A stretch of DNA of 64,000 nucleotides from Rhizobium sp. P32RR-XVIII (GTDB taxonomy: Bacteria > Pseudomonadota > Alphaproteobacteria > Rhizobiales > Rhizobiaceae): contig NZ_JABAIH010000001.1 of NCBI RefSeq assembly GCF_012641395.1, forward strand, positions 62,001 to 126,000, in the 5' to 3' direction. Shown piece by piece: positions 19,560 to 27,756 of this stretch; within the stretch, counting starts at the first letter, position 1, and each line of letters opens with the position of its first letter. The position numbers were made by a program, and so were the translations under genes. The notes beneath the pieces are model-generated. The model was not told where the DNA came from. It saw only the letters and a program-made list of their open reading frames with translations, and did not search any database.

Positions 19560-19695
19560 AGCGAGCCTATTCCGATCATGAGCCTTCTCCCTCCGATCGC
19601 TCCGGCTGCAGAGTCCGCTTTCTCCTTGACCACGGATGTACTGGCATCGAAGCGAGCGGATGACGAAAGGCCGGTTTTAACCGGCCTTTTTGTTT
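19560..19695 (+). ncRNA. Candidate small RNA ending in an orphan terminator (5' end unknown)
   Basis: In the 443-base gap between the SH3b and dipeptidase genes, a strong plus-strand terminator ends at 19695 with no gene before it on that strand. The preceding sequence contains CU-rich, anti-Shine-Dalgarno-like stretches (CTTCTCCCTCC near 19580; TTTCTCCTTG near 19620), a common feature of rhizobial trans-acting RNAs. The start given is a guess. The long frame in this area runs straight through the terminator, so I do not call it coding. The terminator may instead serve as a bidirectional end for the dipeptidase gene. Confidence 0.3.
19666..19695 (+). terminator. Rho-independent terminator between small RNA candidate and dipeptidase
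   Basis: AAAGGCCGGTT (19666-19676) pairs perfectly with AACCGGCCTTT (19679-19689); the T-run continues to 19691 and on into GTTTG. On the minus strand the same stem is followed by only three T, so it could weakly end the dipeptidase transcript. Confidence 0.7.
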
Positions 19696-21299: not shown

Positions 21300-21731
21300 T
21301 CAGATTTTCTTGGCGTTTTCGAGAAGGCGGCGGATGTACTCCAGCATCAGCTCCCGCTCGAAGGTTCTGAAACCGTCGAAGAGCGCCAAGTCCGCTTCCC
21401 GCGCTATCTTTACCGCTTCATCCTCCATCGCTCGTGCATTGGGCGTCAGGAAGATCAATTGCGCCCGCTTGTCGGAAGGGTGCGGTTTGCGCTCGATGAG
21501 GCCATCGCGTGCCATTCGTGCAAGCGTATTGGCCATTGTCGCCTGTTCGATATCGACGCGTTCGAGCAATTGCTTCTGCGTCAGACCATCCTCGGCCCAG
21601 AGTTCGAGAAGAATCGGGAATTGGCCGGGAGAAAAGCCGAGCCCCGCCGCGCGCTGCTGCAGCGAGCGCGCAAACCCCTTGGCCAGCTGGCTGGCAAGGT
21701 AAGCTCCCGAGTCTATTCTTTTAAATCCCAT
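21300..21731 (-). CDS. MarR-family transcriptional regulator
   Basis: A 143-residue winged-helix regulator. HTH residues: LTQKQLLERVDIEQATMANTLARM, followed by the wing RDGLIERKPHPSDKRAQLIFLT. The start MGFKRIDSG at ATG 21731 gives the normal MarR length; a longer frame to 21812 would overlap the small RNA promoter-side region and a palindrome. The ligand is unknown. The palindrome at 21763-21779 could be its own operator. Confidence 0.85.
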   Translation of the reverse strand: MGFKRIDSGAYLASQLAKGFARSLQQRAAGLGFSPGQFPILLELWAEDGLTQKQLLERVDIEQATMANTLARMARDGLIERKPHPSDKRAQLIFLTPNARAMEDEAVKIAREADLALFDGFRTFERELMLEYIRRLLENAKKI

Positions 21732-21825: not shown

Positions 21826-21975
21826 GAAGAACAAAAGCCGCCATGGCCTGGAGGTGGACCACGGCGGCTTTAAATGGGGACAAAGGCCCGGAGAGGGGGA
21901 TAAGGCCTTTGTCCAAGTCTGATGCGGCGGGGGACAAGCCGGTGATCAGACCCTCGGCGTGATCAAACGCCGGTA
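21826..21975 (-). ncRNA. Three-hairpin trans-acting small RNA, probably alpha-r7 (Smr7C) family
   Basis: On the minus strand a CTTGAA-N17-ACAAAT promoter (22010-21982) predicts a start near 21975. Hairpin 1: GTCTGAT/ATCAGAC (21951-21945 with 21923-21917), with an inner GCCG/CGGC stem and loop UUGUCCCCC. Hairpin 2: an 11-bp perfect stem (21914-21904 with 21888-21878) with the C-rich loop UUAUCCCCCUCUCCG. Hairpin 3 is the terminator (21871-21863 with 21842-21834), followed by TTTTGTTCTTC. The length is about 150 nt. From memory, the alpha-r7 RNA of Sinorhizobium (about 149 nt) lies between polA and a marR gene, exactly this context. There is no ORF I would support here. Confidence 0.75.
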
Positions 21976-21981
21976 GATCTG

Positions 21982-22010
21982 ATTTGTGACCGGGAATGTG
22001 GTTTTTCAAG
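21982..22010 (-). promoter_or_regulatory. Promoter of the marR-polA small RNA
   Basis: CTTGAA (22010-22005), 17-bp spacer and ACAAAT (21987-21982). The -35 box fits the rhizobial sigma-70 form CTTGAC; the -10 box is moderate. Confidence 0.5.
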
Positions 22011-22123
22011 GGAAGTCGGCTGAACCGCTAATTACAAATTGGTAACAGTTCGGTGAGCCATGAAATCGCGTGCTGCCGAACTTTATATGGATTTCGCGGG
22101 GCCGCCACGCTATCCATGCAACC

Positions 22124-25114
22124 ATGAAAAAAGGCGATCATCTTTTCCTCGTTGACGGCTCGGGTTTCATCTTCCGGGCGTTCCATGCCCTGCCGCCGCT
22201 GACGCGCAAATCCGACGGCCTGCCGGTCGGCGCCGTCTCCGGCTTCTGCAACATGCTGTGGAAGCTGTTGACCGATGCGCGCGATACGTCGGTCGGGGTC
22301 CCGCCGACGCATTTCGCGGTTATCTTCGATTATTCCGCAAGGACCTTCCGTAAGGATCTGTTCGATGCCTACAAGGCGAACCGTTCCGCACCGCCCGATG
22401 AGCTGATACCGCAGTTCGGGCTAATCCGCGAAGCAACGCGCGCCTTCAACCTGCCCTGCATCGAGACGGAGGGCTTCGAGGCTGACGACATCATCGCCAC
22501 CTATGCCCGGCAGGCGGAAGCGGCCGGCGCTGACATCACGATCGTCTCTTCGGACAAGGATCTGATGCAGCTCGTGACGCCGAATGTCCACATGTACGAC
22601 AGCATGAAGGACAAGCAGATCGGCATTCCGGACGTCATCGAGAAATGGGGCGTGCTGCCCGAAAAGATGATCGACCTGCAGGCGATGACCGGAGATTCGG
22701 TCGACAATGTCCCCGGCATTCCCGGCATCGGCCCGAAGACCGCAGCACAGCTTCTTCAAGAATACGGCGACCTAGACACGCTTCTGGACCGTGCGCACGA
22801 GATCAAGCAGGAAAAGCGCAGGCAAACGATTCTGGAAAATGCCGACAAGGCGAGGCTTTCGCGCGAACTGGTCAGGCTGCGCACCGATGTGCCGCTAGAG
22901 CTTGGCCTCGATGACCTTGTTCTTGAAGTGCAGAACGGCCCGAAGCTGATCGGCTTCCTGAAGGCCATGCAATTTAACTCGCTGACGCGCCGCGTGGCAG
23001 ACGCTTGCGATTGCGATGCGAGCGCCATCGAGGTGGCCGACGTGAAGGTCGAGTGGGGTCCTGCCGCACGCGGGCCGGATCTGGATGCCGTTGAGCCGGA
23101 ACCGGTTGCGGGCGGCATTCCTGACATCGAGGGTCCATCAGTGCCGGTTCCAGCCAGGGCGAAGCCGGCGGCGCGCGGCTTCAGCCCGGCCGACCTTGCA
23201 AATGCCCGCGCCGCAACCTTTGCGACCCTGCCGTTCGATCGCTCTGCCTATGTGACGATCCGCGACCTCGCGACGCTCGATCAATGGATTGCCGATGCCC
23301 GGGACACCGGCCTGGTGGCTTTCGAAACGCAGACGACGTCGCTTGATGCGATGCAGGCCGAGTTGGTCGGCGTCGCGATGGCGATTGCCGACAATGAGAA
23401 GGACCCGGCGGGCGCAAGGATCCGGGCGGCCTACGTGCCGCTCGGGCATAAGAGTGGTGTCAGCGATCTTCTCGGCGGTGGCCCCGCGATCGACCAGATC
23501 CCGATGCGGGATGCTTTGCCACGGCTGAAAGCGCTACTTGAGGACGAGTCCGTTCTCAAGGTCGCGCATGACCTGAAATACCATTACCTGCTGATGAAGC
23601 GTTACGGCGTCGAAACCAAGAGCTTCGACGACGCGATGCTGATGTCCTATGTGCTCGATGCCGGACCGGGAGGCCATGGCATGGACGCGCTTGCCGAGAA
23701 ATTCCTCGGCCATAATCCGATCACCTACAAGGACGTGGCAGGCAGCGGCAAGGCGAACGTGATATTCGACCTCGTCGACATCGATCGCGCAACGCATTAT
23801 GCCGCGGAAAACGCAGATGTGACGCTCCGGCTTTGGAGTGTGCTGAAACCGCGCCTTGCCGCAACCAGACTGACAGCCGTGTACGAGCGCCTGGAGCGGC
23901 CGCTGCTGCCGGTTCTGGCGCGTATGGAGGAGCGCGGCATCACCGTTGACCGGCAAATTCTTTCCCGCCTTTCGGGCGAACTGGCCCAAGGTGCTGCCCG
24001 GCTGGAAGACGAAATCTACACGCTGGCCGGCGAGAAGTTCACGATCGGCTCCCCGAAGCAGCTTGGCGATATTCTCTTCGGCAAATTGGGCCTTGCAGGC
24101 GGCAGCAAGACGAAGACCGGGCAATGGTCGACTTCGGCAAGCGTTCTGGAAGATCTGGCTGCCGCCGGTTTCGAGCTGCCGCGCAAGATCGTCGATTGGC
24201 GTCAGCTGACCAAGTTGAAATCCACCTATACCGATGCGCTGCCGGGATACGTGCATCCGCAGACGAAGCGCGTCCATACATCCTATTCGCTCGCCTCGAC
24301 GACAACGGGGCGGCTTTCGTCCTCCGAACCGAACCTGCAGAACATTCCGGTGCGCACCGCCGAAGGCCGCAAGATCCGCACCGCTTTCATCTCCACCCCC
24401 GGCCACAAGCTGGTTTCGGCCGACTACAGCCAGATCGAGCTGCGCGTGCTTGCCCACGTCGCCGAGATCCCGCAGCTGACACAGGCATTCGCTGACAGTA
24501 TCGATATTCATGCAATGACCGCCTCGGAAATGTTCGGCATTCCGGTCGCCGGCATGCCGTCCGAGGTGCGCCGCCGGGCCAAGGCAATCAACTTCGGCAT
24601 CATCTATGGCATTTCCGCCTTCGGTCTTGCAAACCAGCTCTCGATCGAGCGGTCGGAGGCGGGCGATTACATCAAGAAATATTTCGAACGCTTCCCCGGC
24701 ATCCGCGACTACATGGAGAGCCGGAAGCAGATGGCGCGCGACAAGGGCTATGTCGAAACCATCTTCGGCCGGCGAATCAACTATCCGGAGATTCGCTCGT
24801 CCAATCCTTCAGTGCGCGCCTTCAACGAGCGTGCCGCAATCAATGCGCCCATCCAGGGCTCGGCGGCCGATATCATCCGCCGGGCCATGATCAAAATGGA
24901 ACCGGCGCTTGCCGAAGCGGGCCTCGCAGATCGGGTGCGTATGCTCTTGCAAGTGCACGACGAACTGATTTTCGAAGTCGAGGACAGCGACGTCGAGAAG
25001 GCGATGCCGACCGTCGTTTCCGTTATGGAAAATGCCGCCATGCCCGCCCTGGAAATGCGCGTGCCCTTGAAGGTCGACGCACGCGCCGCGACCAACTGGG
25101 ACGAAGCGCACTAA
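22124..25114 (+). CDS. polA: DNA polymerase I
   Basis: Repair and Okazaki-fragment polymerase, 996 residues. Domains: 5' nuclease (about 1-290, with VSSDKDLMQLV and the H3TH GIGPKTAAQLL), 3'-5' exonuclease-like domain (about 385-585) and family A polymerase (about 600-996) with motif A SADYSQIELRVLAH, O-helix RRRAKAINFGIIYG and motif C LLQVHDELIFEV. Oddity: the exonuclease metal ligands are replaced. The Exo I motif reads F-E-T-Q where E. coli has F-D-T-E; Exo II reads L-K-Y-H for L-K-Y-D; Exo III reads Y-A-A-E-N for Y-A-A-E-D. Proofreading is therefore probably lost. The ATG at 22124 gives MKKGDHLFLVDGSG, the family N-terminus. Confidence 0.97.
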   Translation: MKKGDHLFLVDGSGFIFRAFHALPPLTRKSDGLPVGAVSGFCNMLWKLLTDARDTSVGVPPTHFAVIFDYSARTFRKDLFDAYKANRSAPPDELIPQFGLIREATRAFNLPCIETEGFEADDIIATYARQAEAAGADITIVSSDKDLMQLVTPNVHMYDSMKDKQIGIPDVIEKWGVLPEKMIDLQAMTGDSVDNVPGIPGIGPKTAAQLLQEYGDLDTLLDRAHEIKQEKRRQTILENADKARLSRELVRLRTDVPLELGLDDLVLEVQNGPKLIGFLKAMQFNSLTRRVADACDCDASAIEVADVKVEWGPAARGPDLDAVEPEPVAGGIPDIEGPSVPVPARAKPAARGFSPADLANARAATFATLPFDRSAYVTIRDLATLDQWIADARDTGLVAFETQTTSLDAMQAELVGVAMAIADNEKDPAGARIRAAYVPLGHKSGVSDLLGGGPAIDQIPMRDALPRLKALLEDESVLKVAHDLKYHYLLMKRYGVETKSFDDAMLMSYVLDAGPGGHGMDALAEKFLGHNPITYKDVAGSGKANVIFDLVDIDRATHYAAENADVTLRLWSVLKPRLAATRLTAVYERLERPLLPVLARMEERGITVDRQILSRLSGELAQGAARLEDEIYTLAGEKFTIGSPKQLGDILFGKLGLAGGSKTKTGQWSTSASVLEDLAAAGFELPRKIVDWRQLTKLKSTYTDALPGYVHPQTKRVHTSYSLASTTTGRLSSSEPNLQNIPVRTAEGRKIRTAFISTPGHKLVSADYSQIELRVLAHVAEIPQLTQAFADSIDIHAMTASEMFGIPVAGMPSEVRRRAKAINFGIIYGISAFGLANQLSIERSEAGDYIKKYFERFPGIRDYMESRKQMARDKGYVETIFGRRINYPEIRSSNPSVRAFNERAAINAPIQGSAADIIRRAMIKMEPALAEAGLADRVRMLLQVHDELIFEVEDSDVEKAMPTVVSVMENAAMPALEMRVPLKVDARAATNWDEAH

Positions 25115-27606: not shown

Positions 27607-27631
27607 AGCGATAACGGATTCGTCGAGGACC

Positions 27632-27743
27632 TGGCCCCCTCATCCGACCCTTCGGGCCACCTTCTCCCCGCTGGGGAGAAGGGACTTGCGGCATACTCGA
27701 CATCCCCCTCTCCCCAAGGGGAGAGGGCAGGGTGAGGGGGCCA
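27632..27743. repeat. RIME-like extragenic palindromic element
   Basis: A 112-base element between ftsK and the GrpB gene with perfect 11-bp outer ends (TGGCCCCCTCA at 27632-27642, complement at 27733-27743). Inside are two further hairpins, CTTCTCCCC/GGGGAGAAG (27661-27681) and CCCTCTCCCC/GGGGAGAGGG (about 27706-27727). The motif TTCTCCCC-GCTGGGGAGAA is typical of abundant Rhizobium intergenic palindromes (RIME-type). It may also act as a transcript end. Confidence 0.75.
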
Positions 27744-27756
27744 AGCTCCGCGACGT

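Follow-up and report, generated by a model that had tools for sequence, protein, structure and literature searches.

A Rhizobium copy of the small RNA ar7 between polA and a marR gene, with a phased upstream element that recurs before a BacA-family gene

The minus-strand locus between polA and a marR gene in the window (the whole stretch of 64,000 nucleotides of Rhizobium sp. P32RR-XVIII analyzed here) is virtually certain to be the local copy of ar7 (Smr7C / SmelC023 / sra03 / ReC06), and a phased sequence element upstream of it recurs before a gene of the SbmA/BacA family. When the whole window was scanned against Rfam 15 with cmscan, the ar7 model (RF02342) matched positions 21975-21832 of the minus strand from end to end (model 1-145 of 145, not truncated) with 121.8 bits and an E of 2.1e-23. 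The score is twice the gathering score of 60 bits, and no second match was found in the own genome (7.19 Mb in 92 contigs searched). This Infernal search had been suggested by an earlier sequence-only reading, and the full-length match bears out its assignment of the locus to the alpha-r7 family. What that reading stated of Smr7C of Sinorhizobium, a length of ~149 nt and a place between polA and a marR gene, agrees with the literature as well: S. meliloti smrC7 measures 148-150 nt and lies between polA and SMc02851 (PMC2780559), and a MarR-type gene adjoins ar7 in the 14 Rhizobiaceae copies described in PMC3927594.

In a draw of 297 genomes from the order, 12 had ar7 matches at E <= 0.001, every one of them a member of the GTDB family to which the window belongs; a draw of 199 genomes from that family gave 166 with such matches (134 above the gathering score). 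Both surveys used stricter filters, with which weak matches are lost. Most genomes had one match, and seven (G327, G352, G353, G377, G415, G449, and G453) had two apiece. One S. meliloti record labelled as plasmid pSymB (L125, CP090106.1) spans 3.7 Mb with polA and ar7, and would seem to be a chromosome under the wrong label. A second known alphaproteobacterial sRNA family, ar35 (RF02346), matched the window at 19565-19695 of the plus strand (50.1 bits, cut-off 45, E 2.4e-6), beyond the 3' end of a gene resembling an M20-type peptidase. The ar7 family is already known, from nitrogen-fixing bacteria and their relatives, as an sRNA associated with stress and nodules, and the locus is new only as one more member. 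As the family is known and the cited papers demonstrate no target (none was found in the cited literature among the matches listed), the copy alone adds little, and what merits following up is the phased element upstream, together with its recurrence before the BacA-family gene.

The two hairpins with C-rich loops, one with an 11-bp perfect stem, and the terminator described in the sequence-only reading were all recovered (Table 1), together with a third C-rich loop, that of the terminator, which had been missing from it. The RNA is predicted to be about 141-146 nt long here, its start being placed by alignment with the copy of S. meliloti Ak57 and with the RACE ends published for strain 1021 (PMC2780559). 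Counting back 148 and 150 nt from the last terminator U in Ak57 leads to a G in either case, in agreement with the pair of close G residues that RACE gave for strain 1021 (PMC2780559). The fold reaches -77.5 kcal/mol against -49.9 (sd 4.0) in 200 dinucleotide shuffles, none of which was as low (z -6.9), and is far beyond chance. The processing site that yields the 106-nt species in S. meliloti (position 201723; PMC2780559) was transferred by counting from the terminator in Ak57, and the predicted cut, taken over in this way from another strain, would fall within the C run of loop 1.

Table 1. Features of the ar7 locus and its surroundings, in window positions.
Feature	Position	Strand	Description and basis
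MarR-family regulator gene, downstream	21300..21731	-	PF01047, E 5.2e-15; ORF
ar7 sRNA gene	21833..21975	-	start ~21973-21975, end ~21833, few more T possible; Rfam match and alignment
Intrinsic terminator	21834..21871	-	15-bp stem, T-rich tail; fold
Terminator loop	21849..21856	-	CACCUCCA; third C-rich loop
Hairpin 2	21878..21914	-	11-bp perfect stem (12 with U-G pair); fold
Hairpin 2 loop	21890..21902	-	UAUCCCCCUCUCC, C-rich; fold
Hairpin 1	21915..21953	-	outer stem 21953-21945/21923-21915, inner stem CGGC/GCCG 21941-21938/21928-21925; fold
Hairpin 1 loop	21929..21937	-	UUGUCCCCC, C-rich; fold
Predicted processing site in loop 1 C run	21932..21933 +/- 2 nt	-	inferred
RpoH-like promoter CTTGAA-N18-CAAAT	21982..22010	-	-35-like CTTGAA 22010-22005, -10-like CAAAT 21986-21982; conserved
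Candidate regulator element TCAC-N6-GTTAC-N6-GTAAT	22031..22056	-	26 bp; core palindrome 22031-22046
polA, divergent	22124..25114	+	PF00476, E 3.5e-154

Conservation was assessed in 97 homologues, comprising 37 loci from the genome surveys and 60 chosen from listed Rfam matches (meant as one per further genus; 6 below the gathering score), so that all counts below refer to a sample of the matches listed and are biased towards sequences that the model detects. The loops GUCCCCC and CCCCCUCUCC were nearly invariant: the hairpin 1 loop motif GTCCCCCGC was present in 95/97 homologues, the hairpin 2 loop motif CCCCTCTC in 90/97 (the longer CCCCCTCTCC in 86/97), and CCTCC within the last 50 nt in 86/97. 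In 80 named Rhizobium loci (the best 80 of 186, sharing at least three genomes with the set of 97), the corresponding counts were 80/80 for GTCCCCCGC, 80/80 for the loop 2 motif CCCCTCTCC, and 77/80 for CCTCC in the last 50 nt. The stems vary while the loops hardly do. In an alignment of 26 sequences hand-chosen from the 97, 22 of 33 pairs had changed on both sides (5/11 in hairpin 1, 7/10 in hairpin 2, and 10/12 in the terminator stem) and 96.1% of the cells pair. The covariation score was 0.446 against 0.217 in shuffles, 0/500 of which scored as high, and versions slid along the alignment gave 0.065-0.159; the number of further pair types among the 26 sequences (44) was not clearly above that in shuffles (40.7; 43/500 as high). 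These compensatory changes support the predicted ar7 stems.

The same homologues bear on coding potential. The claim that the transcript holds no ORF is right in substance, as no frame is kept (the three frames were free of stops in 45, 33, and 45 of 96 homologues), but an 89-aa frame with a TTG start, regarded as a chance frame, does cross ar7. The distance between loops 1 and 2 was spread evenly over the frames (31, 30, and 28 of 89 homologues).

The gene order further places the locus in the family. The location by polA and marR with matching orientations, by which ar7 membership is judged, was found here, and S. meliloti Ak57 has the same order as the window (polA, ar7, marR). The MarR protein shares 96% identity with its counterpart in Rhizobium mongolense and 94% with that in R. 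sullae, so that the bacterium is probably a close relative of these two species. Across the 97 homologues, polA was upstream and divergent in 80, and a relative of the own MarR was downstream on the same strand in 24, which is in line with marR being the neighbour in Rhizobiaceae (PMC3927594). The shared strand and the short distance from the RNA end to the marR start (58-171 nt in the 24 homologues with this MarR) would suit a terminated leader of marR, an attenuator in which some signal would allow read-through of the terminator and the conserved loops would serve as sensor parts. We consider this very improbable, since S. meliloti makes a discrete transcript of 148-150 nt with mapped ends (PMC2780559), and a MarR relative follows in just 24 of the 97 homologues, all of which were chosen for having the RNA.

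Upstream of the RNA, CTTG[AT][AT] was found in 92/97 homologues (exact CTTGAA in 81/97) and a -10-like box 16-18 nt beyond the -35 in 89/97. Compared with the published RpoH-like consensus of rhizobia, cTTGaa-N16-CgATaT (PMC4167512), the -35 is exact, the -10 (CAAAT/CCAAAT) departs from CgATaT, and the spacers are 16-18 nt. A scan for E. coli-type sigma-70 promoters returned 0 at the locus (0.4 in shuffles), and the promoter of the sequence-only reading therefore holds only as a conserved RpoH-like one. Motifs for RpoD and RpoH1/2 promoters are listed for smrC7 in the table of a 2020 review (PMC7143759).

Further upstream, the core TTAC-N6-[GT]TAA preceded the -35 in 88/97 homologues, and in 77/97 a third unit extended it to TNAC-N7-TTAC-N7-TAAY, an 11-bp repeat of which the core is also palindromic. 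In the 85 homologues that had the core and a -35 box in that order, the two were 10-12 bp apart in 63, 20-22 bp apart in 21, 43 bp apart in one, and 13-19 bp apart in none. The 80 Rhizobium loci gave 12 bp (30 loci), 20 bp (24), and 21 bp (26), so that 164 of 165 pooled loci, from sets overlapping in at least three genomes, had a spacing of 10-12 or 20-22 bp and never one of 13-19 bp. The two spacing classes are one helical turn apart. The spacer itself is poorly kept, with a mean pairwise identity of 0.34-0.67 among distinct spacers (below 0.5 in 6/7 groups), against 0.71-0.95 for the boxes flanking it, where the core was chosen by pattern and its own figure is thereby inflated. A quick PolA tree was restricted to the 70/97 rows in which PolA and both boxes were present and the gap was <=30, and 33 of its 67 inner branches are left open; on it the class switches 7 times, and well-supported branches force at least 3 of these switches. 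The element could also be considered part of the polA promoter, but we rejected this candidate: the gap between the element and the polA start varies over 72-135 bp in most loci and reaches 798 bp in outliers, whereas the distance from the element to the -35 of ar7 falls into two narrow classes. As the spacing is restricted to two classes one turn apart, the spacer is poorly kept, and the distance to polA is variable, the pattern points to a regulator whose position around the DNA helix, with respect to the RNA polymerase at the ar7 promoter, would have to be fixed. That a regulator acts at the upstream element we regard as likely.

Repeats of 11 bp are frequent binding sites of response regulators of the OmpR/PhoB type. 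Candidates for the owner of the element were compared by their consensus sequences. Neither that of S. meliloti ChvI (N-GCC-N8-GCC) nor that of Caulobacter ChvI (TTGC-N3-GCAA) matches the element. Read as TCA-N8-TCA, the CenR motif (TGA-N8-TGA) agrees with the element in the 11-bp step and in the first unit (TCA-N8-TTA) and departs from it in the later ones, which leaves CenR a possible but unsupported owner. No report of the element TCAC-N7-TTAC-N7-TAAY with its spacing rule was found among the matches listed when the open-licence literature was searched by the RNA names and the motif; the 2012 survey defining these families is said to mention a conserved upstream stretch.

Exact copies of the complete element are found twice in the own genome, at ar7 and upstream of an SbmA/BacA-family gene (PF05992, E 9.3e-161), where the copy lies 95-121 bp before the gene and on the opposite strand to it. 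With <=2 mismatches, the own genome had 24 occurrences against 33 of the control, i.e., no excess. Among 30 ar7-bearing genomes searched (own included), 26 had a BacA-family match, and GTTAC-N6-GTAA[CTG] preceded the gene in 6 of these 26 (own genome, G187, G468, G023, G281, and G295), with the core ~120 bp before the gene, and was absent from the other 20. Shuffles gave an expectation of 0.012 (maximum 1 in 500 rounds), and none of the 1078 upstream windows from 1.2 Mb of the own genome, scanned on the gene strand, had the site. The six site-bearing genomes are not independent of each other, because four of them belong to the window's genus.

No large regulon of the palindrome is apparent, as whole-genome counts do not exceed those of the reversed-pattern control: in the own genome the strict palindrome had 6 strand matches, located at 4 places, and the control 19, and the counts were 48 against 173 in 10 Rhizobium genomes (own included), of which only one (G494) exceeded its own control (8 against 7). 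Of 18 newly fetched loci with the strict palindrome in these ten genomes, 4 were at ar7, 2 at the BacA-family gene, and 12 at neither. Two other sites recurred: GTTACCGGTAAGTAAC precedes a gene of TetR-type appearance, judged by eye, in several Rhizobium genomes (L128, L434, L437, and L439), perhaps as its own operator, and GTTACATTTCGGTAAT recurs in three (L436, L438, and L440), lying in L436 between divergent ORFs, one of which resembles by eye a Clp protease subunit.

BacA has a role in bacteroid development. We tentatively raise the possibility, which we hold to be less probable than its negation, that ar7 and the gene for the BacA-family peptide transporter form one small regulon. One regulator would bind GTTAC-N6-GTAAC, activate the ar7 promoter from one helix face (10-12 or 20-22 bp from the -35), and control the BacA-family gene in Rhizobium and near relatives, which would connect the sRNA with envelope stress or with the ability to survive host peptides in the nodule. 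With a site, a spacing rule, and a further candidate gene, the element offers a starting point in the search for what regulates an sRNA raised in nodules, and may link that sRNA to a BacA-family transporter.

As to how ar7 acts, published data are available for smrC7 (= sra03 = sm13 = SmelC023) of S. meliloti. Two RNA species appear on northern blots (PMC2780559, PMC2573895), the discrete transcript with mapped ends being accompanied by the 106-nt processed form, and the level is about 13-fold up in nodules (PMC2780559). In Hfq co-precipitation SmrC7 gave no signal, which its authors read as absence of affinity or a very low one (PMC2848018). We favor, with moderate confidence, a trans-acting sRNA made by RpoH-type transcription with the aid of an upstream regulator, its C-rich loops pairing with ribosome-binding sites; for the pairing taken by itself we lean only slightly towards acceptance. 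A heat-shock-type sigma factor (RpoH1/2) and a DNA-binding regulator at TCAC-N7-TTAC-N7-TAAY would transcribe ar7 under stress and in nodules, and the three C-rich loops, held open on rigid stems, would pair with G-rich ribosome-binding sites of several mRNAs and mostly lower their translation. A cut in loop 1 would give rise to one species, made up of hairpin 2 and the terminator, and ar7 may act without Hfq.

The proposal of the sequence-only reading that the loops pair with ribosome-binding sites was examined by scoring loop pairing with site accessibility at 1076 crude translation starts, covering 1.2 of the 7.19 Mb of the own genome. The proposal fared best for the terminator loop, which preferred translation starts over coding sequence (0/40 permuted loops as strong), less well for loop 2 (3/40), and not for loop 1, the most conserved of the three (17/40). 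The test is blunt, because the 16S anti-Shine-Dalgarno sequence used as the positive control reached only 10/40. Pairing with ribosome-binding sites is thus a plausible inference. A loop 1 that is nearly invariant and does not prefer translation starts, the likeness of the three loops on their rigid stems, and the missing Hfq signal (PMC2848018) would also be expected of a decoy or protein-binding RNA whose C-rich loops mainly bind a protein or a part of the ribosome, mRNA pairing being secondary. We regard this as unlikely, as loop 2 and the terminator loop do prefer translation starts.

Individual targets were weighed on the same scale. The CCCC loop of Caulobacter CcnA contacts GGGG in the ctrA and gcrA leaders, and in S. 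meliloti the GGGG of ctrA is kept and a CcnA-like homologue was not clearly detected (PMC8959179). If ar7 were the rhizobial counterpart of CcnA, its C-rich loops would modulate the cell cycle by pairing with GGGG in the ribosome-binding site of ctrA. The ctrA start reached -12.7 kcal/mol with loop 1 and -10.7 with loop 2, matched by 0.9% and 1.7% of the 1076 starts, respectively (3.3% and 5.3% by duplex energy alone), and AAGGGGA precedes ctrA in 29/29 loci of ar7-bearing genomes; with the terminator loop, 70% of the starts matched ctrA. However, ctrA loci of genomes without an ar7 hit had GGGG in 19/24 and AAGGGGA in 12/24 (9/10 in ar7's own bacterial family). Its presence in those 19/24 loci makes GGGG a feature common to ctrA ribosome-binding sites in general; the good score of the ctrA start is not specific. 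The gcrA start was equalled or beaten by 3.5% of the starts for loop 2 and by 7.9% over the three loops, and is weak as a target. Altogether, we find it quite doubtful that ar7 is a counterpart of CcnA. The zapA operon (DUF4164-zapA) was predicted as a target in 2007 from complementarity of the central loop to the smc03977-smc03976 leader (PMC2245857). We give next to no credence to this prediction: the DUF4164 start is equalled or outscored by 76% of the 1076 starts in the own genome, which leaves the target unsupported there, and no common G-rich site was visible by eye in the leaders of 30 genomes. A perfect complement of part of loop 2 at window 27702-27713 was also set aside, as it lies in a C/G-rich palindromic intergenic repeat (~27630-27745, flanked by an FtsK-like gene and a small gene on the minus strand) and in no start region; the complement probably arises by chance. 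The favored reading remains that of loops pairing with several ribosome-binding sites.

Compared with the described members of its family (RF02342; smrC7, sra03, sm13, SmelC023, ReC06), the locus shares the full-length model match, the length, the hairpins, the loops, the terminator, the position beside polA and marR, and the single copy; it differs by sequence alone, and its expression and processing in this strain are predicted. SmelA075/SmelA099 (PMC3927594) resemble ar7 in having several hairpins, each with a loop like an anti-Shine-Dalgarno sequence, but they differ in the loop motif CCUCCUCCC, in their loci, and in occurring in several copies per genome. CcnA of Caulobacter (PMC8959179) is likened to ar7 by its loop: as proposed for ar7, it presents a CCCC loop to GGGG near the ribosome-binding site, and it acts on ctrA and gcrA, for which a role of ar7 is a hypothesis. 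GsrN of Caulobacter (PMC5869019) is like ar7 a stress-regulated RNA with a C-rich loop that is cut to a shorter stable form, and the pairing of that loop with a G-rich mRNA leader is a further likeness. In contrast to ar7, GsrN has another sequence, is controlled by sigma-T, and was shown to activate katG (PMC5869019). GsrN keeps its 5' part as the stable form, while the 106-nt species of smrC7 represents the 3' part.
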